Part shown: piece after piece, positions 14,353 through 53,272 of the stretch
Numbering within the stretch: position 1 is the first letter of the stretch
Layout of the letters: each line of letters starts with the position of its first letter
NCBI RefSeq assembly: GCF_015207265.1
Contig: NZ_JADEXE010000008.1
Span: 1 to 59,444 of the forward strand
Source: Nodosilinea sp. LEGE 07298
Lineage (GTDB): Bacteria; Cyanobacteriota; Cyanobacteriia; Phormidesmidales; Phormidesmidaceae
Direction: 5' to 3'
Length of the DNA stretch: 59,444 nt
Notes under the pieces: model-generated
What the model was told of the DNA's origin: nothing
Database searches by the model: none
The model's input: the letters and a program-made list of their open reading frames with translations, nothing else
Made by a program: the position numbers and the translations under genes

Positions 14353-14384
14353 TTGACTCTCCAGATGGCTGGAGAGTTTAGGAT
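14353..14384 (+). promoter_or_regulatory. MerR-type promoter/operator of the merR gene at 14411
   Basis: TTGACT (14353-14358) and TAGGAT (14379-14384) are separated by 20 bp. The spacer region carries a perfect dyad, ACTCTCCAG-N4-CTGGAGAGT, at 14356-14377. The overlong spacer with central dyad is the signature of MerR-family activation. It lies just upstream of the regulator gene, so autoregulation is expected. Confidence 0.85.
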
Positions 14385-14410
14385 GGATTTAATCCTTGAT
14401 GAGGTCAGCC

Positions 14411-14821
14411 ATGCTCACCGAAGCTCCTCCCAAACTCATTGGCGCTGTCGCTAAGAAAAGCGGCCTACCCGTTAAAACCATCCGCTACTACGACGAGATC
14501 GGCCTGCTCAAAACCGCCGGTCGCACCGAGGGCGGCTATCGGGTTTTTGCGGAAGATGTCTTTACCCGGCTGGGCTTTATTCGGCGTGCCCAGAGCCTTG
14601 GCCTCACCCTGACCGAAGTCAAAGAGTTTCTGGAAGTGCATGATCAAGGGGACTTACCCTGCTCCCATATCCAAGTCAAGCTAGAGGACAAGCTGACCGA
14701 GATCGAAGAAAAAATTCAGCAGCTTCAACTGCTGAAACATGAGCTATCTGGGCTTCTGTCTGGGTGGCAGAGCATTGCCACTAAAACAGACGAAGCCATC
14801 TGTCCGATTATTGAAAACTAG
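14411..14821 (+). CDS. MerR-family metal-responsive regulator (CueR/ZntR-like)
   Basis: A 136-residue regulator from ATG 14411, with GAGG seven bases upstream. The N-terminal winged helix has the family pattern (KTIRYYDEIGLL, GGYRVF), followed by a dimerisation helix (about 84-115) and a short metal-binding loop. C84 sits at the position of MerR C82. The end reads AICPIIEN like CueR, with C131, but the first loop Cys (C112 in CueR) is replaced by non-Cys residues. The metal site is therefore a two-Cys variant. Six further promoters with the same dyad lie within 12 kb downstream, in front of oxidase, efflux and ATPase genes, so this protein probably runs a local regulon. The inducing metal (copper is favoured by targets) is inferred. 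Confidence 0.88.
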   Translation: MLTEAPPKLIGAVAKKSGLPVKTIRYYDEIGLLKTAGRTEGGYRVFAEDVFTRLGFIRRAQSLGLTLTEVKEFLEVHDQGDLPCSHIQVKLEDKLTEIEEKIQQLQLLKHELSGLLSGWQSIATKTDEAICPIIEN

Positions 14822-14857
14822 AAAATTTATCTTTACTTCAATAAGTAATAAATGCGG

Positions 14858-14888
14858 AACTGGGTCTATTGAATAGGCCCAGTTTTTT
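14858..14888 (+). terminator. Terminator after merR
   Basis: AACTGGGTCTATT pairs with AATAGGCCCAGTT (one G-T pair), followed by six T. Located between the merR gene and the next MerR-type promoter. Confidence 0.75.
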
Positions 14889-14904
14889 GTTTGAAAATCT
14901 TCTC

Positions 14905-14936
14905 TTGACACTCCAGTTAAGAGGAAGCCTTAGAGT
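14905..14936 (+). promoter_or_regulatory. MerR-type promoter before the NTF2-like gene
   Basis: TTGACA, a 20-bp spacer beginning CTCCAG, and TAGAGT. The left half-site is conserved but the right half (GAGGAA) is degenerate, so binding may be weaker than at the sister sites. Confidence 0.65.
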
Positions 14937-15028
14937 GAGACTATGCCTAGTAAGTCGGGAATGAAAATCCTGCAAAGGGCTATGGAATACACCAGAATTC
15001 ACGTCTGAAACTAACTGAAAGGAAAATT

Positions 15029-15403
15029 ATGACGACTCAAGTGAACACTGAAATCAGTCTGCCAGCTGTCTTTGAGGATATTTGCCAGCTCGTACTCAAA
15101 GGCAGCGCGATGGAAGCCTTTGAGAAATACTACGCTGATACGGTAGTCATGCAAGAAAATGACGAACCCGCCACCGTTGGCAAAGAGGCTAACCGTCGCC
15201 GAGAAGAAGACTTCTTTGCCAAAATTCTTGACTTTCACGAAGCCAAACCCAAGAACGTGGCCTTTACTGAGGACACAATTTTCTCTGAATGGTATCTAGA
15301 CTATACCCATGCCGAATGGGGGCGACGCACCTATCACCAGGTTTCGGTACAGCAGTGGCAGGGTGGCCAAGTGATTCACGAGCGCTTTTACTATGGATCT
15401 TAG
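15029..15403 (+). CDS. SnoaL/NTF2-like small protein
   Basis: A 124-residue soluble protein with AAGGA before its ATG. The pattern of an initial helix (FEDICQLVLKGSAMEAFEKYY), a strand with VMQENDEPATVGKEAN, and later curved strands (EWYLDYTHAEWG, YHQVSVQQWQGGQVIHERFYYG) fits the NTF2-like/SnoaL fold. Such proteins may bind small molecules or act as enzymes; nothing here fixes a substrate. It stands alone between a MerR-type promoter and a strong palindromic terminator, so it is a single-gene member of the MerR regulon. Its link to metal stress is inferred from the promoter only. Confidence 0.75.
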   Translation: MTTQVNTEISLPAVFEDICQLVLKGSAMEAFEKYYADTVVMQENDEPATVGKEANRRREEDFFAKILDFHEAKPKNVAFTEDTIFSEWYLDYTHAEWGRRTYHQVSVQQWQGGQVIHERFYYGS

Positions 15404-15460
15404 CTAGCCTGAGTCTGAAAGTCTATTGAACGAATTTATTTACCAGCTTTAGCTGGGTTG

Positions 15461-15488
15461 AAAGGTCTGCGATCGCAGACCTTTTTTA
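15461..15488 (+). terminator. Perfect palindromic terminator containing a HIP1 octamer
   Basis: AAAGGTCTGCGA and TCGCAGACCTTT form an uninterrupted 24-bp palindrome (15461-15484) followed by a T tract. The centre is GCGATCGC. Confidence 0.8.
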
Positions 15489-15515
15489 TTGCCTAAAAAT
15501 TCTTCAAATTAACTC

Positions 15516-15547
15516 TTGACTGTCCAGCTGACTGGAAACTGTATGGT
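15516..15547 (+). promoter_or_regulatory. MerR-type promoter before the 15587 gene
   Basis: TTGACT, a 20-bp spacer with dyad TCCAG-N4-CTGGA, then TATGGT. It probably drives the two small paralogous genes and the AcrB-type efflux genes that follow without an obvious terminator. Confidence 0.8.
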
Positions 15548-15586
15548 TTACCTATATTTAATTTAACCGCTGTTGAGGAACTTCTG

Positions 15587-15874
15587 ATGAGCACTAATAC
15601 CAACGGACTTAATACAGATTCTGGCTTTGCTCAAGAATGGTTTGAGCTGGTTGACGAAAGGCCTAAGAGATGGAATTTTAGGCAGGCCGTTCACCGGATT
15701 TGGCATGGCGTAATTGAGCTATTTACTCCATCAAGCGAGCTGAAGATTTTCACAGGTCGCGATCGCTACGGCAATACCTATTACCGAGTCTATGACGTGT
15801 TGACTCAAGGTTTCCATCGATTTGAGTCTGAGGATGAGGTGCGCATTTGGCTAGAGCAACGCTATTACCGCTGA
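15587..15874 (+). CDS. Small hypothetical protein, paralogue of the next gene
   Basis: A 95-residue soluble protein with GAGGAA upstream of its ATG. The middle has a helix rich in aromatics (VHRIWHGVIELF). The second half is compact: TGRDRYGNTYYRVYD followed by DEVRIWLEQRYYR. The neighbouring 102-residue protein shares this plan (DRTGQSWWMIQD, NDVRIWLEQQYL), so the two arose by duplication. I do not recognise the family. First gene after a MerR-type promoter and upstream of efflux genes, so metal-inducible expression is likely; the role is unknown. Confidence 0.7.
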   Translation: MSTNTNGLNTDSGFAQEWFELVDERPKRWNFRQAVHRIWHGVIELFTPSSELKIFTGRDRYGNTYYRVYDVLTQGFHRFESEDEVRIWLEQRYYR

Positions 15875-15948
15875 ATGAGCTACCTGATTGATTTTCCAAG
15901 TCCGAGCCGATGTTCTATCTAGTATTTCCATCGAAAAAGGAGTCCGTT

Positions 15949-16257
15949 ATGCATGAAATCCCGCCTGATAGCCCTAACATTTACCGCAAACTGGAATGGG
16001 TTGAGTCATCCCTGGTCAATAGGCCAAAATCACCGGTTGGAGCATTATTTAGCTGGCTTTCACGTACCTCTAGAGAACTCTCTTTTGCGCTGTTTGGAGA
16101 GATGGAGCCGCGAGTTTGGGAGTACGTCGATCGCACCGGTCAGAGTTGGTGGATGATTCAAGACTCCCTGGCCGACGAGCCGTTTCGATCGCTCTCCATT
16201 AACGACGTTCGCATTTGGTTAGAGCAGCAATATCTGGCCAGTCCTGACGATATGTAG
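15949..16257 (+). CDS. Small hypothetical protein, paralogue of the previous gene
   Basis: A 102-residue protein. The ATG at 15949 has a strong AAGGAG six bases upstream, so I prefer it to the longer in-frame start at 15910. A helical segment (VGALFSWLSRTSRELSFALFG) may lie on a membrane surface. The C-terminal half matches the 15587 protein in D-R-T/Y-G-x-x-W/Y and in DVRIWLEQ-x-Y. It ends 49 bp before the RND adaptor gene and is probably co-transcribed with it. Function unknown; a regulatory or assembly partner of the pump is possible but unsupported. Confidence 0.7.
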   Translation: MHEIPPDSPNIYRKLEWVESSLVNRPKSPVGALFSWLSRTSRELSFALFGEMEPRVWEYVDRTGQSWWMIQDSLADEPFRSLSINDVRIWLEQQYLASPDDM

Positions 16258-16306
16258 GCGGCTTTGTAACCTGCCCCGACAAAGACCCATTACTCTCCAA
16301 TTAGCT

Positions 16307-17605
16307 ATGGATGCCTTTGATTTTCCTATTTCTGAAGCCGAGACAGAGCCAGCGACAAGCTCCCCGAAACGATCGCGATGGAAGCGCCTCTGGCTCATCT
16401 TTATCCTAATCTGGCTCACGGGCGGCAGCTTTGAACTGTGGCGCTGGTGGCAAAAGCAGGACGCGGTACCCGTCGCCCAGGCGCAGCAGCCCCCCATGCC
16501 CGTGCAAACCCTGACGGTGCAGGCTGTGAGTCTGGCGGAAACAACGGAGTTTGTGGCCAGTTTGCGATCGCACCAATCCGTCCTGCTCCGCCCCCAGGTG
16601 CAGGGGCAGGTAGCGCAAATTCGAGTGCGGTCGGGCGATCGCGTCACCGCTGGCACGGTGCTGGTTGAAATCAATCCCCAGCAACAGCAAGCCCTGGTGA
16701 GTGGGGCCACTGCCGCCGCCGAGTCGGCCCAGGCCAGTATTGCCAATGCCAGAGCTGGCCTGCAAGCCTTAGAAGCGCAGCGGGTGGCCAAGTTTACCGA
16801 GGTGCAATATGCCCAGCAAGAGTACGACCGCTTTGCCACCCTGGCTGAGGCTGGAGCGGTTTCTCGACAAATGCGCGACCAGTACGCCCAGCAGCTCGAA
16901 GTGGCCCGCGCCCTGCTGAATGCGATGGATGAGCAGATCCGCGCTCAGCAGGCCACCATTGCCCAGGCCGAGCAGTCTTGGCAGTCGGCCCAGGCCCAAA
17001 CCCAGGCGCAGCAGTCCCAGTTAGCCTATTTTCAAATCACCGCTCCCTTTACCGGGGTGGTGGGCGATATTCCCGTCAAGGTGGGCGAGGTGGTCAGTCC
17101 CGGCACGGCGCTGATTGGGCTGGCCAAGAACAACTCCCTGGAGGTGAATTTCTCCGTTCCGGCGGAGCGGGCGGCATTGCTGCAACCGGGTAGCCCCGTG
17201 GAACTGGTGGATGGCCAGGGACAAACCCTGGGCACCAGTCAGGTTGAGTTCATTGCCCCCAATGCCGACCCTGCGACGCAGCTGGTGTTAGTGAAGGCGC
17301 TGTTGCCCAACCCGAAAGGCAACCTGCGGGCCGATCAGTTTGTGCAAGCCCGCATTACCTGGAGTCAGCGCCAGGGCACCCGTGTGCCAACCACTGCCGT
17401 AACCCATTTAGGCAGTGAATCCTTTGTGTTTGTTGCGGAGTCTGGGGCAGAGGGCACAGTGGCGCGGCAGCGATCGTTGCAACTGGGCGAAATCGAAGAT
17501 AACCAGTACCAGGTGATCGAGGGGCTAGAGCCCGGCGAAGCGGTAATCACCACGGGGGTTCTGATGCTGCGCGACGGTGCGCCTGTTAGCCCTATTGAGA
17601 ATTGA
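16307..17605 (+). CDS. RND efflux periplasmic adaptor (MexA/AcrA family)
   Basis: A 432-residue membrane fusion protein. A cytosolic N-terminus of about 25 residues precedes one TM helix (LWLIFILIWLTGG, about 28-45). Next come the barrel-sandwich halves (VLLRPQVQGQVAQIRVRSGD near 95-115 and FQITAPFTGVVGDIPVKVG near 245-265), separated by a long Gln/Ala-rich coiled-coil hairpin (about 125-240). The beta-barrel and membrane-proximal domains follow. Unlike many AcrA-type adaptors it has an uncleaved anchor rather than a lipobox. The AcrB-like gene follows after 113 bp. No dedicated TolC gene is adjacent; the TolC-like protein at 47410 or a chromosomal one could serve. Confidence 0.9.
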   Translation: MDAFDFPISEAETEPATSSPKRSRWKRLWLIFILIWLTGGSFELWRWWQKQDAVPVAQAQQPPMPVQTLTVQAVSLAETTEFVASLRSHQSVLLRPQVQGQVAQIRVRSGDRVTAGTVLVEINPQQQQALVSGATAAAESAQASIANARAGLQALEAQRVAKFTEVQYAQQEYDRFATLAEAGAVSRQMRDQYAQQLEVARALLNAMDEQIRAQQATIAQAEQSWQSAQAQTQAQQSQLAYFQITAPFTGVVGDIPVKVGEVVSPGTALIGLAKNNSLEVNFSVPAERAALLQPGSPVELVDGQGQTLGTSQVEFIAPNADPATQLVLVKALLPNPKGNLRADQFVQARITWSQRQGTRVPTTAVTHLGSESFVFVAESGAEGTVARQRSLQLGEIEDNQYQVIEGLEPGEAVITTGVLMLRDGAPVSPIEN

Positions 17606-17718
17606 GATTTTCGGACGCGAACGGTGCGTTCCGGCCCAAGCAAAGTTCCAACCAACCGTGAATCAGCATTTCTTCAGAAAACCTTACCAGCCCCCCTACT
17701 ACACCCAGAGGTGACTCC

Positions 17719-20700
17719 ATGTTTACGGACTTCTTTATCAAAAAGCCTGTCTTTGCTATTGTCTGTGCCCTGGTCATCCTGGTGGTGGGGTTGATCAGCC
17801 TGCCGCTGCTGCCCATTGAGCAGTATCCCGATATCAGCCCCGTGCAGATTACCGTCACTGCCAACGCTGTCGGGGCCAACGCCCAGGTGGTGGAAGAAAC
17901 CGTGACCAACGTGCTAGAGCGCCAGATCAACGGCGTGGAAGGGATGCGCTACATCAGCTCCACCAGCAGCAACGACGGCACCAGCACCATCGTCGTCACC
18001 TTTCACCAGGGGTACGACATTGATGTGGCGGCCTCGGATGTGCAGAATCGGGTATTGCAAGTAGAACCCCAGCTGCCGGAGGCGGTGCGGCAAACAGGGG
18101 TACAGGTGTCGAAGCAGTCTAGCTCGATTGTGCTGGCGATGGCCCTCTACAGCGAGGACGATCGCTACGACGACACCTTCATCAGTAACTATGCCGATCT
18201 CTATGTGCTCGATGATCTGCGGCGAATTCCTGGCGTGGGGGCGATCGTCCCCTTTGGCGAGCGGCGCTACGCCATGCGTATCTGGCTTGACCCCAATCGC
18301 CTCGCCAGTCGCCAGCTCACGGCCCAGGATGTGATCACCGCCCTGCGTCGGCAGAATGTGCAGCTGGGGGTGGGCAGCATCGGTCAACCGCCGAACGATG
18401 ACGGGCAGCTTTACCAGCTCGATCTGCAAACCCTGGGACGGCTGAGCAGCCCGGCAGAATTTGAGAACGTGGTGCTCAAGGCAGGGGCGGCGGGCGATCT
18501 GGTCAAGCTGAAGGATGTGGGCCGGGCCGAGTTGGGAGCCGAGCGCTACAGCACCTTTGCCCGCTACAGCGGTCATCCGGCGGTGGGCTACCAGATTTTG
18601 CAAACCCCCGGCAGCAACTCCCTCGCCATTGCCAAAGCCGTCAAAGCCGAGATGACGCGGCTAGCGCAACGCTTTCCCCCAGGGCTAATCTATGAGATTC
18701 CCTACGACTCGTCGCGGTTTGTGGAGGCGTCGTTTCGGGAGGTGATTATCACGCTGTTGCAGGCGGTGGTGCTGGTGGTGCTGGTGATCTTTGTGTTTTT
18801 GCAAGACTGGCGCACTACAGTGATTCCCGCCATCACGATTCCGGTGTCGCTGGTGGGCACCTTCGCCTTTGTCAAACTCTTTGGCTTTTCCCTCAACAGT
18901 CTGACGCTGTTTGGCCTGACCCTGGCGACGGGCATGGTGGTGGATGACGCGATTGTGATTGTGGAAGACATCAGCCGCCTGATTCAAAAGGAAGGTTTAT
19001 CGCCCGTGCAGGCGGCGATTGCCTCCATGCGGCAGCTCTTTGGCGCGGTGATTGCCACTTCGCTGGTGTTGATGGCGGTGTTTGTGCCAGTGGGCTTTTT
19101 CCCCGGTACGGCGGGGCAGCTCTACCAGCAGTTTGCGCTGACGATTGCCTTTGCGATCGCAATTTCCACCCTCAACGCCCTCACCCTTACCCCAGCGCTC
19201 TCGGCGCTGCTGCTGCGGGCACAACCGCGTCAAACCGGCTGGCTGGGCTGGATCTACCGCCGCATCAACGGCTTTCTGACCTGGCTAGAGCGCGGCTATC
19301 GCTGGAGCCTGGGTCGGCTGACGCAATGGCAGAGCCTCGTTTTGGTCGGGTTTGTGGGCCTGTTAGTGGCGACGGGGTGGCTCTACACCCAGGTGCCCCA
19401 GGCCTTTTTGCCCGAAGAAGACCAGGGCTATTTCATCAGCATTTTGCAGGGGCCAGACGGCACCTCCCTCAACTACACCGAGCAGGTGGTGGCCCAGGCC
19501 GAGCAGCAGTTGCTGGCGGTGCCAGAGCTGGAAGGCACCTTTGCCATGGGGGGCGTGGGCTTTAACGGCAACACCCCCAACCGGGGCATTCTGTTTGCGC
19601 CGCTGAAATCCTGGCAGGAGCGGCGGCAGCCTGAGCAGTCGGTGACGGGCATTCTCAACCGGGTGCGGATGCCGCTGATGGGCATTCCCCAAGCACCGGT
19701 GATTGCGGTGAACCCGCCCACTATTCCCAGCCTCGGCAGCGTCGGCGGCTTTGTGTTTCAGCTTCAAGATCGCGACAGCAGCACCTCAGACATTAACGAA
19801 TTGGATCAAATGAAAGGGGCGATTTTGGCAAAGGCCAACCAGACCCCCGGCTTGCAGGGGGTGTTTAGCCTCTACACCTCCAACGCGCCCCAGCTTCAGG
19901 TGGAGGTCAACCGCGATCGCGCCGAAGCTCTGCAAGTCCCCGTCGAGGAGATTTTTGGCACCCTGCAAACCTACCTCGGCTCCCGCTACGTCAACGATTT
20001 CAACGCCTTTGGCCGCACCTATCGAGTCTATGTGCAGGCCGATGCCGCCTTCCGCGCCGACCCCGACAGCATTGGGCAGCTATACGTGCGATCGCGATCG
20101 GGCGACATGATTCCCCTCAGCGCCCTGGTCACGGTCACCCGCACCACCGGCCCGCAGATCATCAACCACTACAACCTGCACCGCGCCATTGAAATTAACG
20201 GTTCAGCGGCTCCCGGCACCAGCTCTGGTGAAGCCATGCAGGCGATGGCGAAGCTAGCGACCGAGGTGCTGCCCCCCAACCTGGGCTTTGAGTGGTCGGG
20301 CATTTCCCTCGAAGAACTGGAATCGGGCGGCAAAGCGCCGATCATCTTTGGCCTAGGGATTTTCTTTGTGTTTCTGGTGCTGGCGGCCCAGTACAACAGC
20401 TTTGTCGATCCGCTGACGATTATGCTGGCGGTGCCCCTGGCGGTGTTGGGGGCGCTAGCGGCCCAGTCAATGCGCGGGCTGTACAACGACGTGTACTGCC
20501 AGGTGGGGCTGGTAATGCTGATTGGTCTGGCCAGTAAAAACGCCATTTTGATCGTGGAGTTTGCCAACCAGCTGCGGGACGAAGGGCTATCCCTCACCCA
20601 AGCGGCGGTGCAGGCTTCCCAAGAACGGCTGCGCCCGATTTTGATGACTGCCATCTCGACCCTGTTGGGTATTTATCCGCTGATGGTGGCTACGGGGGCA

Positions 20701-20841
20701 GGCTCGGCCAGTCGCCAATCGTTGGGTACAGCTATCTTTGGCGGCATGTTGGTGGCGACGGTGCTCACGCTGTTTGTGGTGCCGGTGCTCTATATCGCGA
20801 TCGGCAACGTGCAACAGCGCGTGATCAAGGCGTTCCGATAG
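17719..20841 (+). CDS. HAE1-type RND multidrug efflux pump (AcrB-like)
   Basis: A 1040-residue inner-membrane pump with AGAGGTGA ahead of its ATG. It shows the AcrB N-terminus (FFIKKPVFAIV, PIEQYPDISP), paired aspartates in TM4 (GMVVDDAIVIVED, near residue 410) and the TM10 Lys (GLASKNAILIVEF, near residue 940) that form the proton relay. The sequence is of the hydrophobic/amphiphilic compound class, not the metal class, and differs clearly from the two CzcA-type pumps here. Placement behind a MerR-type promoter suggests metal or thiol-reactive stress induces it. The substrate is unknown. Confidence 0.93.
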   Translation: MFTDFFIKKPVFAIVCALVILVVGLISLPLLPIEQYPDISPVQITVTANAVGANAQVVEETVTNVLERQINGVEGMRYISSTSSNDGTSTIVVTFHQGYDIDVAASDVQNRVLQVEPQLPEAVRQTGVQVSKQSSSIVLAMALYSEDDRYDDTFISNYADLYVLDDLRRIPGVGAIVPFGERRYAMRIWLDPNRLASRQLTAQDVITALRRQNVQLGVGSIGQPPNDDGQLYQLDLQTLGRLSSPAEFENVVLKAGAAGDLVKLKDVGRAELGAERYSTFARYSGHPAVGYQILQTPGSNSLAIAKAVKAEMTRLAQRFPPGLIYEIPYDSSRFVEASFREVIITLLQAVVLVVLVIFVFLQDWRTTVIPAITIPVSLVGTFAFVKLFGFSLNSLTLFGLTLATGMVVDDAIVIVEDISRLIQKEGLSPVQAAIASMRQLFGAVIATSLVLMAVFVPVGFFPGTAGQLYQQFALTIAFAIAISTLNALTLTPALSALLLRAQPRQTGWLGWIYRRINGFLTWLERGYRWSLGRLTQWQSLVLVGFVGLLVATGWLYTQVPQAFLPEEDQGYFISILQGPDGTSLNYTEQVVAQAEQQLLAVPELEGTFAMGGVGFNGNTPNRGILFAPLKSWQERRQPEQSVTGILNRVRMPLMGIPQAPVIAVNPPTIPSLGSVGGFVFQLQDRDSSTSDINELDQMKGAILAKANQTPGLQGVFSLYTSNAPQLQVEVNRDRAEALQVPVEEIFGTLQTYLGSRYVNDFNAFGRTYRVYVQADAAFRADPDSIGQLYVRSRSGDMIPLSALVTVTRTTGPQIINHYNLHRAIEINGSAAPGTSSGEAMQAMAKLATEVLPPNLGFEWSGISLEELESGGKAPIIFGLGIFFVFLVLAAQYNSFVDPLTIMLAVPLAVLGALAAQSMRGLYNDVYCQVGLVMLIGLASKNAILIVEFANQLRDEGLSLTQAAVQASQERLRPILMTAISTLLGIYPLMVATGAGSASRQSLGTAIFGGMLVATVLTLFVVPVLYIAIGNVQQRVIKAFR

Positions 20842-20876
20842 AGCAAGCCCAGGTTTGTGAACTTATCAACGCCCCC

Positions 20877-20908
20877 TTGACACTCCAGCACACTGGAGTC
20901 TCTAGCAT
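20877..20908 (+). promoter_or_regulatory. MerR-type promoter before the multicopper oxidase
   Basis: TTGACA, a 20-bp spacer with perfect dyad CTCCAG-N4-CTGGAG, then TAGCAT. It lies 90 bp before the oxidase start. Confidence 0.85.
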
Positions 20909-20997
20909 AGAGTCATCAAGCTTTTTAACCCCTGTCACGCTGCATTGACGGGCATTTCAACCAATCATTACCCTTCCCTAGGGAAAAGGAAAAGACC

Positions 20998-22494
20998 ATG
21001 AAGCGTCGTCATTTTATCGCCCTCGGAGCGGCTGGCATTGGCAGTGCGGCAACCCTCCATTGGGCTGGGAATCGTCCTGTTGCTGATGGATTTTCTGCGA
21101 TCGCTGCCCCCACTATTTACACCAGCCAAGATGGCCTGCTAGAGGTCGATTTAACCGCTGCGGTGAGCCCAGTACAAGTGGGCGATCGCACCGCCAACCT
21201 GCTCAGCTACAACAGCCAAAGCCCCGGCCCCCGGCTAGAGGCCCGCCCCGGCGATACCGTTCGCATTCGCCTGCACAACCAGCTCGATCAGCCCACCAAC
21301 CTGCACTACCACGGGCTGCACATCACCCCCGAGGGCACAGGCGATAACGTGTTTGTCAGCGTGGCACCAGGCGAAACCTTCACCTACGAATTCACCATTC
21401 CCGCCGATCACCCAGCGGGCACATTCTGGTATCACCCCCATCACCACCACCACGCGGCAGAACAGCTCTTTGGCGGATTGGCAGGGCTATTCGTCATTCG
21501 CGGCGAACTGGATGAGATTCCTGAGGTGAAAGCTGCCCAGGAGGAATTTATTGTTCTCAGAGATTATGAAATTGACCGAGCGGGCAACGTTCCACCCGCC
21601 GATCACATGGCGCTGATGATGGGGCGCGAAGGGTCGCTGGTCACGGTAAACGGTCAGCTTAATCCCAGCTTGAGCGTTCCCCAAGGCGGGTTGCTGCGGC
21701 TGCGTTTGCTAAATGCGTCGGCCTCGCGGTTCTATAAGTTGCAGCTAGAGGGGCACCCGTTCCAGTTAATTGCTACGGATGGGGGTGCGATCGCATCCCC
21801 CGTCCAAATTCAAGAACTCCTCCTCGCTCCCGGCGAACGGGCCGAAGTTCTGGTGCAGGGCAACCGACAACCGGACACCTACCGCCTGCTCAACCTGCCC
21901 TATAACCGCAATGGCATCGGCATGATGGGCGGCATGGGTGGCATGATGGGCGGCGGCCATGGCATGGGCGGCATGATGCACGGTGGCAGGGGTTCCTCCG
22001 GTGACGCTCAACCCCTCGCCACCCTGGCCTACAGTGGCTCCGTCGCGGCGCTACCGCTACCCCGTCAGCTAGGCACCGTGGAAACGCTGCCGGAACCGAC
22101 TGTCACCCGCCGCATCGAGCTTTCCATGACCATGGGGCACGGCATGGGTCAAGGGATGGGCATGGAATTTTGGTTTAACGGCCAGCCCTACGACGAAAAG
22201 CGCATCGACATTGAAGCCCAGCTCGGCACCGTGGAAGAGTGGGAACTTGCTAACGTTGATCCTGACTTGATGGATCACCCCTTCCATTTACACGTCAACC
22301 CGTTCCAGGTGGTGAGTCGCAGTGGGCAGCCTGAACCCTACCGCGCCTGGAAAGATACGGTGTTGGTGAAGGGCGGCGAAACAGTACGGATTCGCGTGCC
22401 TTTCCGCACCTTTGCGGGCAAGACGGTCTACCACTGCCACATCCTCGACCACGAGGACTTGGGCATGATGGGCAACCTGCAAATTTCGGCTTAG
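20998..22494 (+). CDS. Three-domain multicopper oxidase, CueO/CopA-like
   Basis: A 498-residue oxidase likely acting in the periplasm on Cu(I). A Tat-like signal (MKRRHFIALGAAG) precedes the cupredoxin domains. Copper ligands are clear: HYHGLHI (about 101), FWYHPHHHHH (about 142), HPFHLHVNPF (about 425) and YHCHILDHEDLGMM (about 479), the last holding the type 1 Cys. A Met/Gly/His-rich insert (GMMGGMGGMMGGGHGMGG region, about 304-330) and a second Met patch (MTMGHGMGQGMGM) resemble the Met-rich lid of CueO. Transcribed from a MerR-type promoter with a perfect dyad. Ends in a hairpin shared with the convergent DUF305 gene. Confidence 0.93.
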   Translation: MKRRHFIALGAAGIGSAATLHWAGNRPVADGFSAIAAPTIYTSQDGLLEVDLTAAVSPVQVGDRTANLLSYNSQSPGPRLEARPGDTVRIRLHNQLDQPTNLHYHGLHITPEGTGDNVFVSVAPGETFTYEFTIPADHPAGTFWYHPHHHHHAAEQLFGGLAGLFVIRGELDEIPEVKAAQEEFIVLRDYEIDRAGNVPPADHMALMMGREGSLVTVNGQLNPSLSVPQGGLLRLRLLNASASRFYKLQLEGHPFQLIATDGGAIASPVQIQELLLAPGERAEVLVQGNRQPDTYRLLNLPYNRNGIGMMGGMGGMMGGGHGMGGMMHGGRGSSGDAQPLATLAYSGSVAALPLPRQLGTVETLPEPTVTRRIELSMTMGHGMGQGMGMEFWFNGQPYDEKRIDIEAQLGTVEEWELANVDPDLMDHPFHLHVNPFQVVSRSGQPEPYRAWKDTVLVKGGETVRIRVPFRTFAGKTVYHCHILDHEDLGMMGNLQISA

Positions 22495-22504
22495 GGCACC
22501 GGTT

Positions 22505-22573
22505 CAGAAACCCGGCTTCTTGCCCAGAATGCGGGTATGCCCTGGGAGCAGTGACGAAGAAACCGGGTTTTTA
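22505..22573. terminator. Inverted repeat between convergent genes
   Basis: AGAAACCCGG near 22506 pairs with CCGGGTTTTT near 22563. Hairpins of this GAAACCCGG type recur at 30421-30478. It may terminate both the oxidase and the convergent DUF305 gene. Confidence 0.5.
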
Positions 22574-22598
22574 GCGCTACTGCGGGAGGGCGATCGCC

Positions 22599-23273
22599 CT
22601 ACTGGCCGTACCAGCCTTGCCGCCACTGGGTCATCTGGTCGATTTCGACCTGCTGGCTGGCGATAATGGCTTCCGCCAACGCCTGGACTTCAGAACGGCT
22701 GCTCTTAGCTAGCGCTTCTTGCGCCATAGTCAACGCCCCCTCATGGTGGGGAATCATGGCGTTGATAAAGCGTAGGTCGTACTCATCGTCAGCGGCACCG
22801 AGATCCATATTCATCATCATGGCTGACATCATATCTGCACTCATGGGCATCATGTGACCCATCTCGGCGTGATACATGACCGGGTCTGCCGGAGCGTCAG
22901 GGTACCAGGCTTGCCGCCAGGCCTGCATTTCAGCAATTTCGGTCTGTTGAGCCGCAATAATCTCGCTAGCCAGGGTTTGAATTTCGGGACGGGTAGAGTT
23001 TTGCTGGGCGTCCTCTGCCATTACGACCGCGCCCTGGTGGTGCATGATCATGGCGTCGATGAAGCGCAGGTCAAAGCTTTCGTCGGCGGGGCCGAGATCC
23101 ATGCTGCCGTGATCCATCATGCCGCTACCCTCCATCTGGCCCATGCCGCCGTGATCCATCTGGGCGGTTTCGGTAGATGGCTCAACTGCCGCGTCGCGGG
23201 AGTTAGCGCAGGCGGGCAGACCAACGGCGGCGGTAAGGCCGAGCAGGGCGATCGCAGCTAGTTTCAGTGTCAT
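22599..23273 (-). CDS. CopM-like periplasmic lipoprotein with two DUF305 domains
   Basis: A 224-residue exported protein from ATG 23273, preceded by AGAGG. A lipobox (LTAAVGLPAC) ends the signal. Then come a Met/His-rich stretch (MDHGGMGQMEGSGMM) and two DUF305 repeats, each with the core D/N-A-M-I-x-HH-x-GA and MAxxA (about 90-150 and 160-224). DUF305 includes Synechocystis CopM, a periplasmic Cu/Ag-binding protein. A perfect TTTCAT-N5-TTTCAT direct repeat lies 62 bp upstream. Convergent with the multicopper oxidase. The role as a periplasmic metal-binding protein is well supported by family and by the upstream site. Confidence 0.9.
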   Translation of the reverse strand: MTLKLAAIALLGLTAAVGLPACANSRDAAVEPSTETAQMDHGGMGQMEGSGMMDHGSMDLGPADESFDLRFIDAMIMHHQGAVVMAEDAQQNSTRPEIQTLASEIIAAQQTEIAEMQAWRQAWYPDAPADPVMYHAEMGHMMPMSADMMSAMMMNMDLGAADDEYDLRFINAMIPHHEGALTMAQEALAKSSRSEVQALAEAIIASQQVEIDQMTQWRQGWYGQ

Positions 23274-23334
23274 TTCAGTACCTCTTTCGCTGGCATGGTG
23301 CGCATTTACCACTACGGCAGCGTGCCACGCAAAA

Positions 23335-23351
23335 ATGAAATCAGGATGAAA
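23335..23351 (-). promoter_or_regulatory. CopR-like direct repeat, perfect
   Basis: TTTCAT-CCTGA-TTTCAT on the minus strand, 62 bp before the DUF305 gene. The 17-mer is identical to the one at 46216-46232. Confidence 0.8.
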
Positions 23352-23487
23352 TGTGAGCTGTTGACGGTATGAAATATTGAATTTGGTAATCTCTCTCAAT
23401 AGCTAGATTTGGTGGTTTCTAGTCTCTCTTTAAGTTAGAGAGAAGACCGAAATGATCAGGATCTTGTAAAGGCTAGAGAGGTAAATT

Positions 23488-23856
23488 ATGCCGATTCAAA
23501 CCCTCAAATTACACAACCTAAATGACGAGATGCAGCAGTGCATTCAAAACTGCCTCGATTGCCACAGCATCTGTCTCAACACCATCACCTACTGCCTAGA
23601 GCAGGGCGGTCACCACGCCGAGCCGTCCCACATTCGCCTGATGATGGACTGCGTGGAGAGCTGCCAAACCAGCGCCAATTTCATGTTGCGCGGCTCTGAC
23701 CTGCATGCTCATTTTTGCGGGGCCTGTGCGGAGGTGTGCGATCGCTGCGCCGAGGACTGCGCCAGCATGGGCGACGATACCCAAATGCAGGCCTGCGCCG
23801 AGATGTGCCGCCGCTGTGCAGAAACTTGCCGCCGCATGAGCATGGCAATGGCCTAA
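23488..23856 (+). CDS. Cys-rich four-helix copper-storage-like protein (Csp/DUF326)
   Basis: A 122-residue protein with 16 Cys. Most sit in C-x3-C or C-x2-C steps along helices (C18, C22, C25, C29, C36, and the run from HFCGAC to ETC), so the thiols line the inside of a four-helix bundle as in Csp copper-storage proteins. No signal peptide is present, indicating a cytosolic Csp3-like form. AGAGAGG precedes the ATG. It ends in a strong terminator. Cu(I) storage is the expected role by family. A second, diverged copy is at 37708. Confidence 0.88.
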   Translation: MPIQTLKLHNLNDEMQQCIQNCLDCHSICLNTITYCLEQGGHHAEPSHIRLMMDCVESCQTSANFMLRGSDLHAHFCGACAEVCDRCAEDCASMGDDTQMQACAEMCRRCAETCRRMSMAMA

Positions 23857-23923
23857 TCTAGGCTGGCTTTAGACTTGTCCACGCAGCACAGGTACAAGCC
23901 ATAAAATCTAACCGCTAACGCAG

Positions 23924-23959
23924 TGAGGGGCATAGTCTTTATGCCCCTCATTGTTGTTT
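23924..23959 (+). terminator. Strong terminator after the Csp-like gene
   Basis: TGAGGGGCATA and TATGCCCCTCA form an 11-bp perfect stem with a 5-nt loop, followed by TTGTTGTTT. Confidence 0.85.
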
Positions 23960-24015
23960 CAAGACGCAATAAAAATAATAATTAACCGCCTTACAAATTG
24001 TTTGATCTAGACCCC

Positions 24016-24047
24016 TTGACTCTCCAGCATACTGGAGCCCCCAAGAT
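24016..24047 (+). promoter_or_regulatory. MerR-type promoter before the truncated copZ/azoreductase unit
   Basis: TTGACT, a 20-bp spacer with perfect dyad CTCCAG-N4-CTGGAG, then CAAGAT. It resembles the copZ-copA promoter at 26649 very closely, including the same CAAGAT -10. Confidence 0.85.
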
Positions 24048-24074
24048 AGACCCATACACATTGAGAGATTTGCC

Positions 24075-24152
24075 ATGAGCATTCTATTTACTGTTCCAGA
24101 TCTAGCCTGTTCTACTCCCCTAGCTCCCCTTGATCATAGGCATTCACATTAG
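24075..24152 (+). CDS. 25-residue truncated CopZ-like peptide
   Basis: The short frame starts like the CopZ at 26709 (MSILFTVPDLACS versus MSLSFTVPNLACS), keeping the first metal-binding Cys (C12), then diverges before the second Cys and ends in HRHSH. Promoter, leader and first 13 codons are a duplicate of the copZ unit, so this is a remnant of gene duplication. Whether the peptide is made or is only a leader for the azoreductase gene 51 bp downstream cannot be decided. The His-rich end with one Cys could still bind metal. Confidence 0.5.
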   Translation: MSILFTVPDLACSTPLAPLDHRHSH

Positions 24153-24203
24153 AGCCCAGTCTTCCCTTCTCATCATCCTCAGTCAACCTATCAGAGAAGC
24201 CCC

Positions 24204-24827
24204 ATGAAACTGCTAGAAATTCAGACCAGCGTTCGTCAGGATCGATCAGTAACTCGCACCCTAGCATCCAAATTTATTTACCAATGGCAGGCCTATCATC
24301 CCAAAGCTCAGCATTACCTGCGGGACTTGGGGGCACAACCCCCTGCCTTAATTACCAATGACTGGGTAGCCGCTAACTTAACTCCAGCATCCGACCAGAC
24401 CGACGAAACTAGGGCATTGTTAGCCACCTCAGATACCTTAATTGCTGAGCTATTTGCGTCCGATCGCCTGGTGCTGGGAGTCCCAATGTATAACTTTGGT
24501 ATTCCCGCACACTTGAAAGCTTACTTCGATCAGATAATTCGGGTTGGCCATACCGTAGACTACAATCGCGACACACAAACCTTTGAGGGTCGCCTCACCG
24601 ATAAGAAGGCCATCATTATTAGCTCTCGGGCTGGAAAATATACCCCTGAAACACCAGAGAGTGCAATGGATTTTTGCGTACCCTATCTACAGTTCATCTT
24701 GAGCTTTTTGGGCATTCAGGATGTGGAGTACGTTGAGGTTCCCTATCAAGGGATGGGCGATGATCAGCAGCAAAAAGCCACTGAAGCCTCGATTGCCCGC
24801 CTAATGGAACTAGCCAAAACTTGGTAG
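24204..24827 (+). CDS. FMN-dependent NADH azoreductase/quinone reductase (AzoR family)
   Basis: A 207-residue flavodoxin-fold reductase. The FMN-binding block PMYNFGIPAHLKAYFDQ (about 95) is the family signature. An N-terminal SVRQDRSVTRTL segment corresponds to the phosphate-binding loop of AzoR, and the later SSRAGKY segment is also typical. The enzymes reduce quinones or azo bonds with NAD(P)H, protecting against electrophiles and quinone redox cycling. Expression from the MerR-type promoter at 24016 would tie it to metal stress, probably to limit copper-driven quinone damage. This is inference. Confidence 0.88.
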   Translation: MKLLEIQTSVRQDRSVTRTLASKFIYQWQAYHPKAQHYLRDLGAQPPALITNDWVAANLTPASDQTDETRALLATSDTLIAELFASDRLVLGVPMYNFGIPAHLKAYFDQIIRVGHTVDYNRDTQTFEGRLTDKKAIIISSRAGKYTPETPESAMDFCVPYLQFILSFLGIQDVEYVEVPYQGMGDDQQQKATEASIARLMELAKTW

Positions 24828-24889
24828 CTCTGACCTTTCGCTTTTCTATAGTGTTTCTCACGTCTTTGGACAACAGGTAGCAGAACCCT

Positions 24890-24994
24890 TTAGCGTTTCT
24901 CGATCTAGTGAGATGTAGGCAAGGGGCTTAAGTCCCTTATTATCGAAAGACTTTCCTCGGCAAGGTCCATCTCATTAGCCAGGGAAACGCTATA
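24890..24994. repeat. MITE-like imperfect inverted repeat of about 105 bp
   Basis: The left end, TTAGCGTTTCTC then GTGAGATG, is mirrored by the right end, CATCTCATTAGCC then GGGAAACGCTATA. The core is AAGGGGCTTAAGTCCC. A related core, AAGGGGCTTAAGCCC, lies at about 25842-25857. No coding capacity; non-autonomous element or dispersed repeat. Confidence 0.5.
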
Positions 24995-25084
24995 TTTCTG
25001 ATACCCAATTCATTGGCCTTGCAAGTATCGCAACTAGAGCCAATCACATTCTCTGATACCGATTACCGCATTGGATTATTTGTC

Positions 25085-25543
25085 ATGAAGCAACCTTCTT
25101 CTCGTTCATTTCCCTTTGAGCCAAACGCTGACCAACGAGCTATAGCAACAGGGCTACACGCTACTCGTAATCTATTGCCGTTGGTTGCTCGCATTCTACT
25201 AGTCGCTATCTTCCTGTTGTCTGGTGCCAATAAAATCCTCCATCCAGCAGACACCCAGGCCTATATGGCTGCTTTCGGTATGCCGCTGACCTGGCTGTTT
25301 TTGCCCGCTGCAATTGTTTTAGAATTGCTCGGCGCTATGTCTGTTCTACTGGGCATTTATCCTCGATTGGGGGCCGCTGCACTAGCATTCTTTACCCTGC
25401 TGACTGGCTTTATCTTCCACAGCAATTTTGGTGACCCCCTAGAGCAGGTTATGTTCATGAAAAATTTGGCCATGGCGGGAGGACTTTTGCTGATTGTGCA
25501 ATACGGCGTGGGCAACGCCGTCTGGCGTTTTCGAGGACGATAA
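25085..25543 (+). CDS. DoxX-family membrane protein
   Basis: A 152-residue membrane protein from ATG 25085. After a polar N-terminus of about 30 residues there are four TM segments: LVARILLVAIFLLSGANK (about 40-57), LFLPAAIVLELLGAMSVLL (about 80), GAAALAFFTLLTGFIF (about 103) and MAGGLLLIVQYGVG (about 130). The RxxxxxIFxxxGxxK start of TM1 is typical of DoxX. Such proteins are linked to thiol and redox stress in other bacteria; the precise role is unclear. It follows the azoreductase gene after a repeat element, so co-transcription is uncertain. No good ribosome site; a TTG at 25013 is an alternative. Confidence 0.75.
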   Translation: MKQPSSRSFPFEPNADQRAIATGLHATRNLLPLVARILLVAIFLLSGANKILHPADTQAYMAAFGMPLTWLFLPAAIVLELLGAMSVLLGIYPRLGAAALAFFTLLTGFIFHSNFGDPLEQVMFMKNLAMAGGLLLIVQYGVGNAVWRFRGR

Positions 25544-25715
25544 TCCCCGTAAACGTTTCTCGGAACGGTGCGATCGCTGGTTAGTTTGCGGATTCGGTAA
25601 TGGCCAAATGCTGGATAAGAGTCGCTGATTTAGCTCATTCCTGCTACGGGGCTGGCCTGTTGCCTGAGCGGGGATAGGCCAAGCTGTCATCCTTGCACCT
25701 AATTCATAACATTAT

Positions 25716-25762
25716 TGACTTCCTATGGCGTATTTTTGATGCCATAGGAAGTCATTCATTTT
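25716..25762 (+). terminator. Perfect 14-bp stem terminator
   Basis: TGACTTCCTATGGC pairs perfectly with GCCATAGGAAGTCA across an 11-nt loop and is followed by TTCATTTT. It probably ends the DoxX transcript. Confidence 0.75.
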
Positions 25763-25912
25763 AAAGGGAAATAACTGATAGCCATAGCTTTTATTTGGCG
25801 AATATCCGATTGGTTTTATACCTCTATTCGCTAAAGAATAAGGGGCTTAAGCCCTTTGTCCATGGCACATCTTACTGAAACTCATGATCTCGATTTTATT
25901 TTCCGAAAATGC

Positions 25913-25944
25913 TTGACATTCCACCAAGCTGGAAACTGTAAGGT
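25913..25944 (+). promoter_or_regulatory. MerR-type promoter before the DUF2808 gene
   Basis: TTGACA, a 20-bp spacer with dyad TTCCA...TGGAA, then TAAGGT. The variant half-sites are close to the E. coli CueR operator style. Confidence 0.8.
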
Positions 25945-25971
25945 TGTAGAGTCGAGCTAGGAAATAGCATT

Positions 25972-26514
25972 ATGAAACGCATCGTAAATACCCTGTCTAT
26001 TAGCGCTTTGTCTGTACTCAGCGCAGTCGCATTAAATGTGTCTGCACGGGCAGAGACTTTTGATATTGCAGAGGTTTCGTTTGACCATAGCCCCCATTTA
26101 GCTGAAGTGACGACTATGGATCAGACACCGTTTCAAGGAGGTCGTTACCATTTTGTTATTCATGTTCCTGATCATGCTGGCGAAGCCCTTAAGGCTATTC
26201 TCATTGCCCCTCAAGACCGCGCAGCCCAAATTGATTTTGACCTGAATGCTACCACCGTCCACCGAGGAGGTGCCTATGCCAATGGTGAGCGTCTTAACTT
26301 AGTTAGTCTAGGAGGTGAGGCTGAAAATTCTGAGGAGATCTGGGTCGTTTTTGATCAGCCAGTAGCCCCTGGTGAAACCGTAACGGTGACCTTAGAAACG
26401 ACCAGCAATCCTACGGATGGAGTCTACCTCTTTGGCGTAACAGCCTATCCCGATGAAGATGACGGTGTGGGTCAGTTCTTGGGGTATGGCCGCATCCAAA
26501 TCTATGGATATTGA
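25972..26514 (+). CDS. DUF2808 exported protein
   Basis: A 180-residue exported protein with signal peptide (about 1-27, cleavage near ARA-ET). The mature part follows the DUF2808 pattern common in cyanobacteria: an F-D-H-S-P start, YHFVIHVPDHAGEALKAI, a beta-rich middle and a C-terminal GVYLFGVTAYPDEDD then FLGYGRIQIYG. The biochemical function of the family is unknown; the fold is probably a beta-sandwich in the periplasm. It is a single gene behind its own MerR-type operator, which makes it a candidate periplasmic metal-stress protein. Confidence 0.8.
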   Translation: MKRIVNTLSISALSVLSAVALNVSARAETFDIAEVSFDHSPHLAEVTTMDQTPFQGGRYHFVIHVPDHAGEALKAILIAPQDRAAQIDFDLNATTVHRGGAYANGERLNLVSLGGEAENSEEIWVVFDQPVAPGETVTVTLETTSNPTDGVYLFGVTAYPDEDDGVGQFLGYGRIQIYGY

Positions 26515-26648
26515 CCTCGATTGACCGGCTGCGCCCTACTTTAACTGACCCATAGAAGGCAGATGTCGTTGCTGGCTTCAGAATGACATCTGCAACCTTG
26601 GGATTCACCTGATTTAAAGGTGCAGCAGCAAAAACCTTGACTCCCCCC

Positions 26649-26680
26649 TTGACTCTCCAGCGCACTGGAGCCTCCAAGAT
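26649..26680 (+). promoter_or_regulatory. MerR-type promoter of copZ-copA
   Basis: TTGACT, a 20-bp spacer with perfect dyad CTCCAG-N4-CTGGAG, then CAAGAT, 28 bp before the copZ ATG. Confidence 0.88.
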
Positions 26681-26708
26681 AAATCCATACAGCATTTAGA
26701 GGTTTGTT

Positions 26709-26903
26709 ATGTCCCTTTCCTTCACCGTTCCCAACCTGGCTTGTTCTTCCTGTGTCAAGGCTGTAACCCAAGCCATTCAAACGATTGACCGCACCGCTCA
26801 GGTCAACGCCGATCCCAAAACCAAGCAGGTCAACGTTACCACTGCCGCCACCGAGGCGGTCATTAAGCAGGCCATTATCGACGCTGGCTATACCGTGGCC
26901 TAG
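26709..26903 (+). CDS. copZ: CopZ-like HMA copper chaperone
   Basis: A 64-residue heavy-metal-associated domain with the metal loop L-A-C12-S-S-C15 and the usual beta-alpha-beta-beta-alpha-beta spacing (VTQAIQTIDRTAQVNAD, AVIKQAIIDAGYTVA). It would carry Cu(I) in the cytosol and hand it to the ATPase encoded 57 bp downstream. The loop has LACSSC instead of the common MxCxxC, which is allowed in cyanobacterial Atx1-like proteins. It is controlled by a MerR-type promoter, and a truncated duplicate lies at 24075. Confidence 0.9.
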   Translation: MSLSFTVPNLACSSCVKAVTQAIQTIDRTAQVNADPKTKQVNVTTAATEAVIKQAIIDAGYTVA

Positions 26904-26960: not shown

Positions 26961-29213
26961 ATGCAAAACCAACTCTTAAAGCTGCGGGGCATGAGCTGCG
27001 CCGCCTGTGCCAGCACCATTGAAGATGCCATTCGCAGCGTCCCCGGTGTCGAGGCGTGCAGCGTGAATTTTGGCGCTGAGCAGGCCGCCGTCACCTACGA
27101 CCCCCACCAGACCAACCTCACCCACATTCAGGCAGCGGTGGATGAGGCGGGCTACACCGCCCAGCCCATGAGCGAAGACCCCCTCGCCGCCGAGGACGAT
27201 GCCGAGCGGCGGGAGCGCGAGGCCGAAAACCGCCAGCTTACCCGCAAAGCCGTCTTTAGCCTAATCATTGGCGGCATTCTGGTCGTCGGCTCGCTGCCGA
27301 TGATGCTGGGCCTGCCGATTCCGTTTATTCCGATGTGGCTGCACAACCCCTGGTTGCAGCTGGTGCTGACGGCCCCGGTGCTGTTTTGGGCCGGAAATTC
27401 CTTTTTTATCAACGCCTGGAAGGCTTTGAAGCGTCACTCCGCCAGCATGGATACCCTGGTAGCGGTGGGCACGGGTACGGCGTTTCTCTACTCGCTGTTT
27501 CCCACGATTTACCCCCAGTGGTTCATTGCCCAGGGGCTGAACCCCGACGTGTATTTTGAAGCAGCGGCGGTGATTGTTGCCCTGATTTTGCTAGGGCGAC
27601 TGCTGGAGAACCGCGCTAAGGGCCAGACCTCCGAGGCGATTCGTAAGCTGATGGGCTTGCAGGCCAAAACCGCCCGAGTCATTCGCGAGGGCCGCGAGTA
27701 CGACATTCCCATTGCCGAAGTAGTTCTGGGCGACGTGATTTTGGTGCGGCCTGGGGAGAAAATTCCCGTCGATGGCGAAATTATTGACGGCGCGTCCACC
27801 CTGGATGAAGCGATGGTGACGGGCGAAAGCGTGCCCGTGCAGAAAACCGTCGGCGATGAGGTGATCGGCGCAACGCTGAATAAAACCGGCAGCTTTAAGT
27901 TCCGCGCCACCCGCATCGGCAAAGACACGTTCCTGGCGCAGATCGTCAAGCTGGTGCAGCAGGCCCAGGCGTCGAAAGCCCCGATTCAAAAGCTGGCCGA
28001 CCAAGTGACGGCGTGGTTTGTACCGGCGGTGATTGCGATCGCGATTCTCACCTTCATCGTCTGGTACAACGTCATGGGCAATGTCACGATGGCGCTAATT
28101 ACCACCGTAGGCGTGCTGATTATTGCCTGCCCCTGTGCTTTAGGATTAGCCACGCCGACCTCAATTATGGTGGGCACAGGCAAAGGGGCCGAGAACGGCA
28201 TTCTGATTAAAGGGGCCGACAGCCTAGAGCTGGCCCACAAAATCCAAACCATTGTGCTGGATAAAACGGGCACCATCACCCAGGGCAAACCCACTGTGAC
28301 GGATTACGTGACCCTCAACGGCACCGCCACCGAACTGCACCTGCTGACGCTGGCGGGCTCGCTGGAACGCAACTCTGAGCATCCCCTGGCCGAGGCCGTG
28401 GCCCAGTATGCCCAGGCCCAGGGCGCAACGCTGACCGATGCCAAAAACTTTGAAGCCGTTGCGGGCAGTGGGGTTCAGGGTTTGGTAGAAGGTCGCAGAG
28501 TTCAGATTGGCACCCACCGCTGGATGGCCGAATTGGGCATTGCTACCGATCGCCTGCAAACCCAGTGGGACAGACTAGAATCCCTCGGTCGCACCGTGGT
28601 GTGGCTGGCGGTGGATGGTCAGGTCGAAGCGCTACTGGCGATCGCCGATGCCGTCAAGCCCTCCTCTGTTGCCGCTATTGCCACCCTGCAACGGATGGGG
28701 CTGGAAGTGGTGATGCTGACCGGCGATAACCGCCGCACCGCCGAGGCGATCGCCCGCGAAGTCGGCATACGCCGCGTCTTTGCCGAAGTACGCCCCGACC
28801 AAAAGGCTGCCCAGGTCGAAAGCTTACAGCAGGAAGGCAAGATTGTGGCGATGGTGGGTGACGGCATCAACGATGCCCCCGCCCTAGCCCAGGCGGATGT
28901 GGGTATGGCCATTGGTACAGGCACCGATGTGGCGATCGCCGCCAGCGACATCACCCTGATCTCCGGCGACCTGCACGGCATCGTCACCGCCATTCAGCTC
29001 TCCCGCGCCACCATGGCCAACATTCGCCAAAACCTGTTCTTTGCTTTCATCTACAACGTCGCGGGCATCCCGATCGCAGCGGGCATTCTCTACCCCTTCT
29101 TTGGCTGGCTGCTCAGCCCAATTATCGCTGGGGCAGCGATGGCTCTGAGCTCGGTGTCGGTGGTGACGAACGCGCTTAGGTTGCGGAACTTTCGCCCGAA
29201 GTTGCAAGGGTGA
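26961..29213 (+). CDS. copA: Copper-exporting P1B-1 ATPase (CopA)
   Basis: A 750-residue Cu(I) pump. ATG 26961 has AAGGAGG immediately upstream; the frame extends eight codons further without a better site. One N-terminal HMA domain (M11-S-C-A-A-C16) is followed by eight TM helices with the CPC ion motif ([13 protein letters not shown], near residue 395), phosphorylation loop DKTGT (near 433), [12 protein letters not shown] and GDGINDAPA hinge motifs. The CPC motif and HMA domain define Cu(I)/Ag(I) transporters. It lies in a MerR-controlled operon behind copZ. Export direction is inferred from operon context, since cyanobacteria also have importing-type relatives for thylakoid supply. Confidence 0.93.
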
Positions 29214-52961: not shown

Positions 52962-52971
52962 GACGGTGGTT

Positions 52972-53247: not shown

Positions 53248-53272
53248 TTCATTACCTTGAAAGTTGAGTTCA

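Follow-up and report, generated by a model that had tools for sequence, protein, structure and literature searches.

Seven MerR-type operators of a probable copper(I)/silver(I) detoxification regulon in a gene cluster of Nodosilinea sp. LEGE 07298

Results

The DNA analysed here, called the window below, is a stretch of 59,444 nucleotides from the cyanobacterium Nodosilinea sp. LEGE 07298 (contig NZ_JADEXE010000008.1). It carries a cluster of genes encoding a MerR-family regulator (the 14411 protein), an NTF2-like protein, two small proteins (u95 and u115), a resistance-nodulation-division (RND) pump, a multicopper oxidase, two proteins of the DUF305 and DUF326 families, an azoreductase, a DUF2808 protein, and CopZ and CopA, and it contains seven promoters of the MerR type (Table 1). 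A sequence-only reading of this DNA had described the promoters as near-identical and as forming a compact local regulon of a single regulator. The present analysis indicates that the seven sites probably belong to a cyanobacterial MerR-type Cu(I)/Ag(I) detoxification regulon, which is most probably run by the 14411 protein.

The seven promoters were borne out. Each consists of TTGACN, exactly 20 bp and a −10-like hexamer, and each is built around the dyad ACTCTCCAG-N4-CTGGAGAGT, a related form of which was also claimed before, the consensus dyad spanning 22 bp. The term near-identical fits five sites but not the two at 14905 and 25913, in which the right half-site (GAGGA) and the left half-site (TCCAC), respectively, are degenerate. 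The whole 7.25-Mb genome was scanned by patterns. The exact motif TTGACNNTCCAGNNNNCTGGA was found at the five sites and nowhere else, compared with about 0.014 matches expected by chance. A looser pattern, in which degenerate half-sites were allowed and the spacer and the −10 box were fixed, gave seven exact matches in the genome, namely the seven cluster sites. A weight matrix derived from 93 sites in other genomes, close relatives being excluded, was applied to the window and ranked the seven sites as the top seven (44.9, 43.2, 37.8, 36.5, 32.9, 21.4, and 14.9 bits); the maxima in six Markov-shuffled windows were −13.4 to −4.2 bits with the same matrix. Because the training set consisted of exact pattern matches, the five exact sites rank high partly by construction, but the two degenerate ones do not. 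The site at 14905 is retained in two relatives, where the right half is likewise degenerate (locus L042) or more so (L043).

Spacers of 19–20 bp and untwisting of the DNA are general for the MerR family (PMC9909328, PMC5045206). All seven promoters have a 20-bp spacer enclosing the dyad, and the nearby 14411 gene encodes both the MerR helix-turn-helix (HTH) and the MerR-DNA-bind domains. These sequence features support the assignment as overlong MerR-type promoters of a shared regulon, and the earlier description of the targets as a mixture of cytosolic, membrane, periplasmic, and redox proteins agrees with the gene content. The first base of the −10 hexamer was C in 37 of 50 copZ/copA operators and T in 20 of 24 merR operators (Fisher test, 1.6e-7, ignoring kinship), and this base choice possibly tunes the basal level.

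Table 1. Operators, genes, and insert of the cluster (positions in the window; bits, weight-matrix score)
Feature	Position	Strand	Evidence or remark
Operator/promoter 1 (TTGACT-20 bp-TAGGAT), before merR	14353..14384	+	43.2 bits; same position in most close orthologs (58 bp before ATG)
merR-family regulator, 136 aa, cysteines only C84 and C131, clade 1	14411..14821	+	PF00376/PF13411/PF09278 above cut-off; alignment; AlphaFold fold match
Operator/promoter 2, degenerate right half-site, before NTF2-like gene	14905..14936	+	14.9 bits; L042, L043
SnoaL/NTF2-like protein	15029..15403	+	PF20409 above cut-off; 96% identity in G148
Operator/promoter 3, before small-gene pair and RND pump	15516..15547	+	32.9 bits; kept in L042, L043
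u95, small protein of a broad cyanobacterial family	15587..15874	+	predicted beta-beta-beta-alpha domain, residues 50–95
u115, distant u95 relative	15949..16257	+	likely start 15949; longer frame from 15910
RND membrane-fusion protein (MFP)	16307..17605	+	PF16576/PF13437
RND permease, HAE1/AcrB (multidrug) type, not CusA	17719..20841	+	TIGR00915 1294.7 bits vs cut-off 940; TIGR00914 416 vs 701
Operator/promoter 4, before multicopper oxidase	20877..20908	+	37.8 bits; kept in L042, L043
Multicopper oxidase, CueO-like domain order	20998..22494	+	PF07731/PF07732/PF00394
DUF305 (CopM-like) secreted protein, no own operator (window scan)	22599..23273	-	PF03713
DUF326 Cys-rich four-helix copper-storage-like protein, no own operator	23488..23856	+	PF03860; weak TIGR04401
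Operator/promoter 5, now before azoreductase; continuous with DUF326 side of ancestral copZ promoter region	24016..24047	+	36.5 bits; G148 left-flank continuity
Truncated copZ remnant: MSILFTVPDLACST, followed by unrelated codons and a stop	24076..24153	+	
Insert of about 2.5 kb with azoreductase, DoxX, and DUF2808 genes; copZ promoter and 5' end present in one copy on each side	24114..26643	.	absent from orthologous G148 cluster
Azoreductase/flavodoxin-fold protein	24204..24827	+	PF02525
Operator/promoter 6, left half-site TCCAC, before DUF2808, within insert	25913..25944	+	21.4 bits
DUF2808 secreted protein	25972..26514	+	PF10989
Operator/promoter 7, before copZ-copA	26649..26680	+	44.9 bits
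copZ-like metallochaperone (CxxC)	26709..26903	+	
copA, Cu(I)/Ag(I) P1B-1 ATPase	26961..29213	+	TIGR01511 above cut-off; PF00122/PF00403; CPC, YN, MxxSS in sequence

The regulon is not purely local, since two further sites with correct spacing lie elsewhere in the genome: C106:5870(−), before the gene of a secreted DUF305 (CopM-like) protein, and C360:3387(+), before a second copZ-copA. These two contigs could in principle be contamination (estimate 3.2%) in a genome that is otherwise complete. Other genome hits of the loose pattern (C199, C307, C113, and others) were discarded owing to a poor score or the lack of a proper −10 box at 20 bp.

The motif TTGACNNTCYAGNNNNCTRGA was found in 107 of 291 cyanobacterial genomes, often in multiple copies, and the reversed control in few. 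Among 117 distinct sites, 51 precede copZ and/or copA, 25 a merR-family gene, and 13 a DUF305 gene; the minor targets are a His-rich secreted protein (six sites), the u95/u115 family (four), and a multicopper oxidase (three). The recurrence of copZ/copA, merR, and DUF305 as targets across the phylum points to a copper(I)/silver(I) regulon. At single loci of other cyanobacteria the operator also precedes genes for a 61-residue Cys-rich secreted peptide and for glutaredoxin-like and thioredoxin-like proteins (L154 1501; L225 4220; L240 6047). The 20-kb loci around non-cyanobacterial MerR relatives lacked the operator, except for one metagenome-assembled genome labelled Candidatus Gracilibacteria (L071), in which a perfect cyanobacterial operator lies at 773 near a MerR relative; this assembly is probably mis-binned.

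The two small genes, listed earlier as unknown, do have the operator upstream, but their family is widespread in cyanobacteria (103 of the 291 genomes) and mostly unlinked to this operator. Besides the close clusters L042, L043, L045, and L047, an operator upstream of u95-family homologs was found only in G148 among 29 others. A search of the PDB with u95, whose model has low confidence outside residues 50–95, gave no significant match. Just upstream of the cluster, at 9085–12306 of the window, lies the gene of a CusA/CzcA-type heavy-metal RND permease (TIGR00914 above cut-off) without this operator.

Discussion

We propose that a dimer of a MerR-family protein, most probably 14411, would sit on the dyad within the 20-bp spacer. 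In the absence of metal, the dimer would keep the −35 and −10 boxes misaligned; once Cu(I) or Ag(I) is bound, probably by C84 and C131 from opposite subunits, it would untwist the DNA so that RNA polymerase can start. The predicted targets in the cluster are the merR gene itself (autoregulation), copZ-copA, the multicopper oxidase, the RND pump with the two small proteins, and the NTF2-like protein, and those elsewhere in the genome are the second copZ-copA and the CopM-like DUF305 gene. The azoreductase-DoxX and DUF2808 genes joined through the 2.5-kb insertion, which has a copy of the copZ promoter on either side.

Among the possible regulators, the 14411 protein is the best candidate, and it is predicted to bind the operator. 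The genome contains 11 MerR_1 genes. In the tree, clade 1 (the 14411 type), clade 2, and clade 3 (C446:7762) are separate, and the 56611 paralog adjoins clade 3. The operator lies before clade-1, some clade-2, and clade-3 merR genes themselves; it precedes many genes of the 14411 type, usually 58 bp before the start. It occurs in 39 of 50 genomes having a close 14411 relative (at least 150 bits) versus 68 of 241 others (hand tally; Fisher test, 8e-11, ignoring shared ancestry). The shared regulon of the sequence-only reading is upheld, but a single reader is not established, since the clade of C446:7762 carries the same operator. Some genomes of the same genus lack clade 1 and contain a single match at E ≤ 1e-20, which is clade 3 where read (G134 and G236); they keep the operator before copZ-copA, so that the operator is independent of 14411 in the genus and two proteins may read it here.

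It is a real possibility that the two paralogs, 14411 and the genus-wide C446, share the operators in joint or redundant control, 14411 having arrived with the cluster as a second sensor. The same-genus clade-3 merR genes have TTGACCCTCYAG-N4-CTRGAGAGTTTAGGAT upstream of themselves, and the own promoter of C446:7762 contains a related operator scoring 24.7 bits. In this genome, however, that operator is degenerate (TAGACT, CTGTAG), the recognition helix of C446 differs from that of 14411 (V-G-A vs V-K-T), and there is no cluster of sites near C446.

The window's two further MerR genes were rejected as partners in cross-talk because their dyads differ: the dyad at 56522 (CTCAAG..) scores 7.2 bits and that at 53303 (TTGAAG..TTCAAGG) −7.5 bits, making both proteins unlikely readers of the cluster sites. 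At 56522 (−), a divergent MerR-type promoter, TTGACT-CTCAAGCCAACCTCAGGGTT-TACCTT, accompanies the third MerR gene of the window (56611–57051, +), which is nearest to clade 3 in the tree. At 52328–53304 (−), the MerR-type promoter TTGACC-TTGAAGTTAGGTTCAAGGTT-TAGAGT precedes a thioredoxin-like gene, the second merR (FCQGTIC C-terminus), and a gene of a MerF-like transporter.

The AlphaFold model of 14411 (pLDDT 86) comprises a winged HTH, a long dimerisation helix (84–121), a loop, and a short C-terminal helix, and its fold matches the structures of CueR, CadR, PbrR691, and SoxR. C84 caps the dimerisation helix at the position of Ser77 in CueR, which is Cys in Hg, Cd, and Zn sensors. C131, within ICPIIEN, is the equivalent of CueR Cys120, and the position of CueR Cys112 is occupied by Trp or another residue, so that the first loop cysteine is missing. 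C84 and C131 are invariant in 24 of 24 aligned proteins of the three clades. According to a review of the family, nearly all such sensors carry both loop cysteines (PMC9909328). Most simply, C84' and C131 are predicted to form a two-coordinate Cu(I)/Ag(I) site that spans the dimer. The protein scores below the curated cut-offs of CueR (TIGR02044, 95.3 vs 147.4 bits), MerR of the mercury type (TIGR02051, 98.0 vs 150.85 bits), and ZntR (TIGR02043, 85 vs 167.95 bits). Of the CueR residues C112, C120, and Ser77, only the second has its counterpart; the protein has two cysteines, not the three of mercury-type MerR, and no mer target. As in the CueR regulon, copA and a copper oxidase are among the predicted targets.

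Cu(I)/Ag(I) is the most likely signal, copper and silver being inseparable here. The P1B-1 CopA, CopZ, the CueO-like oxidase, and DUF305 argue for copper; in Synechocystis, the DUF305 protein CopM binds copper and serves in resistance, and three homologs in Anabaena are copper-induced (PMC4335983). Mercury is less likely, because the MerF operon of the window has its own MerR and a different dyad and no MerA above the cut-off was found in the genome. A mercury regulon was also rejected on the ground that the operator was not found before MerA-like genes. Several points nevertheless weigh against a copper regulon run by 14411: the RND permease is of the multidrug, not the metal, type; the selectivity position is Cys (C84), as in divalent-metal sensors, whereas CueR has Ser77; the MerR-type Slr0701 of Synechocystis answers Hg (PMC6741143); and the clade-3 paralog C446:7762 shares the operator class and may read some or all of the sites. 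It is unlikely that the sensor answers mainly a divalent metal (Zn, Cd, or Hg), the copper genes being one component of a wider response to metals. C84, Slr0701, and the slightly higher score of the MerR model TIGR02051 than of the CueR model (98 vs 95 bits) would fit such a sensor, but the cyanobacterial targets are overwhelmingly copZ/copA, DUF305, and multicopper oxidase genes, merA, zntA, and czc genes were not seen among the genes behind the operator, the MerF operon is served by a different operator, and the protein lacks one of the loop Cys residues that Hg/Cd coordination requires.

The history of the cluster can be read from its ortholog in Phormidium tenue FACHB-1052 (G148), where the order is merR, NTF2-like, u95, u115, MFP, AcrB, oxidase, DUF305, DUF326, copZ, copA, and cupredoxin. 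In the window, the copZ promoter and the first copZ codons are duplicated (about 24012–24113 and 26645–26747) on either side of the insert. The DUF326 side of the G148 sequence continues into the left copy, and the right copy continues into copZ; the azoreductase promoter is therefore a copZ promoter followed by a copZ stub. The −10 hexamer CAAGAT, present at 26649 and 24016, agrees with the copZ origin of the latter; the other five sites have T as the first base. DUF2808 brought or gained its own weaker operator, and none of the DUF2808 homologs at 29 other loci had the operator upstream (L301 has one unrelated site). The azoreductase and DUF2808 genes, named earlier as targets, do have operators upstream, but they are a later addition missing from the G148 cluster. 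In FACHB-1052, merR lies about 850 bp away from its operator (L042 9155–10001), which suggests an insertion that may have broken autoregulation. It is very unlikely that the repeats are no more than copies of promoter DNA distributed through recombination, some of which (those of the azoreductase, DUF2808, and NTF2-like genes) would have no function: 24016 and 26649 are copies and 14905 and 25913 are degenerate, but the likeness among the other sites is limited to the operator core, the merR, NTF2-like, u95, and oxidase operators are kept in relatives with the 20-bp spacer, and the motif recurs across the phylum before the same kinds of genes.

We tentatively suggest that 14411 may represent a widespread group of cyanobacterial MerR-family copper sensors, in which paralogous clades share the operator, Cu(I) is bound linearly by C84' and C131 across the dimer, and the regulon is larger than that of CueR. 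If so, Cu(I) would be held between subunits instead of by two cysteines of one loop. The operator would mark a predicted cytosolic copper regulon in roughly one in three of the 291 cyanobacterial genomes sampled, and the operators offer a ready bait set for the two-cysteine sensor. The cluster is also a concrete case of regulon growth by insertion at a duplicated promoter.

Comparison with known systems

The CueR regulon of Escherichia coli and other proteobacteria likewise comprises a MerR-family Cu(I) activator with a C-terminal CPIIE(N) motif, an overlong promoter, and copA and multicopper oxidase targets. The present system differs in the spacer (20, not 19 bp), the operator (22, not 21 bp), the Cys at the Ser77 position together with the missing first loop Cys, the predicted autoregulation, and the larger regulon (DUF305, RND, NTF2-like). 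ZntR, MerR, and CadR-PbrR share the operator geometry and the Cys of the dimerisation helix; in E. coli, the promoter of zntA has a 22-bp dyad with ACTC ends and a 20-bp spacer, as in the present operators. In contrast to these systems, the core here is CC, not GG, the sensor has one loop Cys and scores below all their curated cut-offs, and the targets are copper genes.

Cyanobacteria are known to control copper through the two-component CopRS, BxmR, and PetRP. In Synechocystis, CopRS also directs a DUF305 protein and an RND pump in the defence against copper, through copMRS/copBAC (PMC4335983, PMC4182526), but by two-component periplasmic sensing, whereas a cytosolic one-component regulator is predicted here. 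Slr0701 of Synechocystis is also a cyanobacterial MerR-family autoregulator with scattered targets; it is reported as an Hg sensor controlling merA (PMC6741143), whereas the targets considered here are copper genes. A 2023 survey of marine bacteria reported its Cyanobacteriota representatives to be without one-component copper regulators (PMC10141476). The main texts of open-access journal articles that were searched yielded no account of a cyanobacterial copper regulon of the MerR type.

The Prot-DNA-Korr catalogue (PMC5045206) lists a cyanobacterial HMRTR group whose 22-bp sites have their centre 8 bp from the −35 box; in these sites, C at position 5 goes with Lys14 and A at position 13 with Val13. 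In the passages of its main text consulted, neither gene content nor a metal is given for this group, and a copper regulon and paralog sharing are not described. V21-K22 of 14411 corresponds to Val13-Lys14 in our own mapping onto the numbering of that paper, and the present 22-bp operators have C5 and, in about half of the sites, A13. The operator class was probably seen before in that work.

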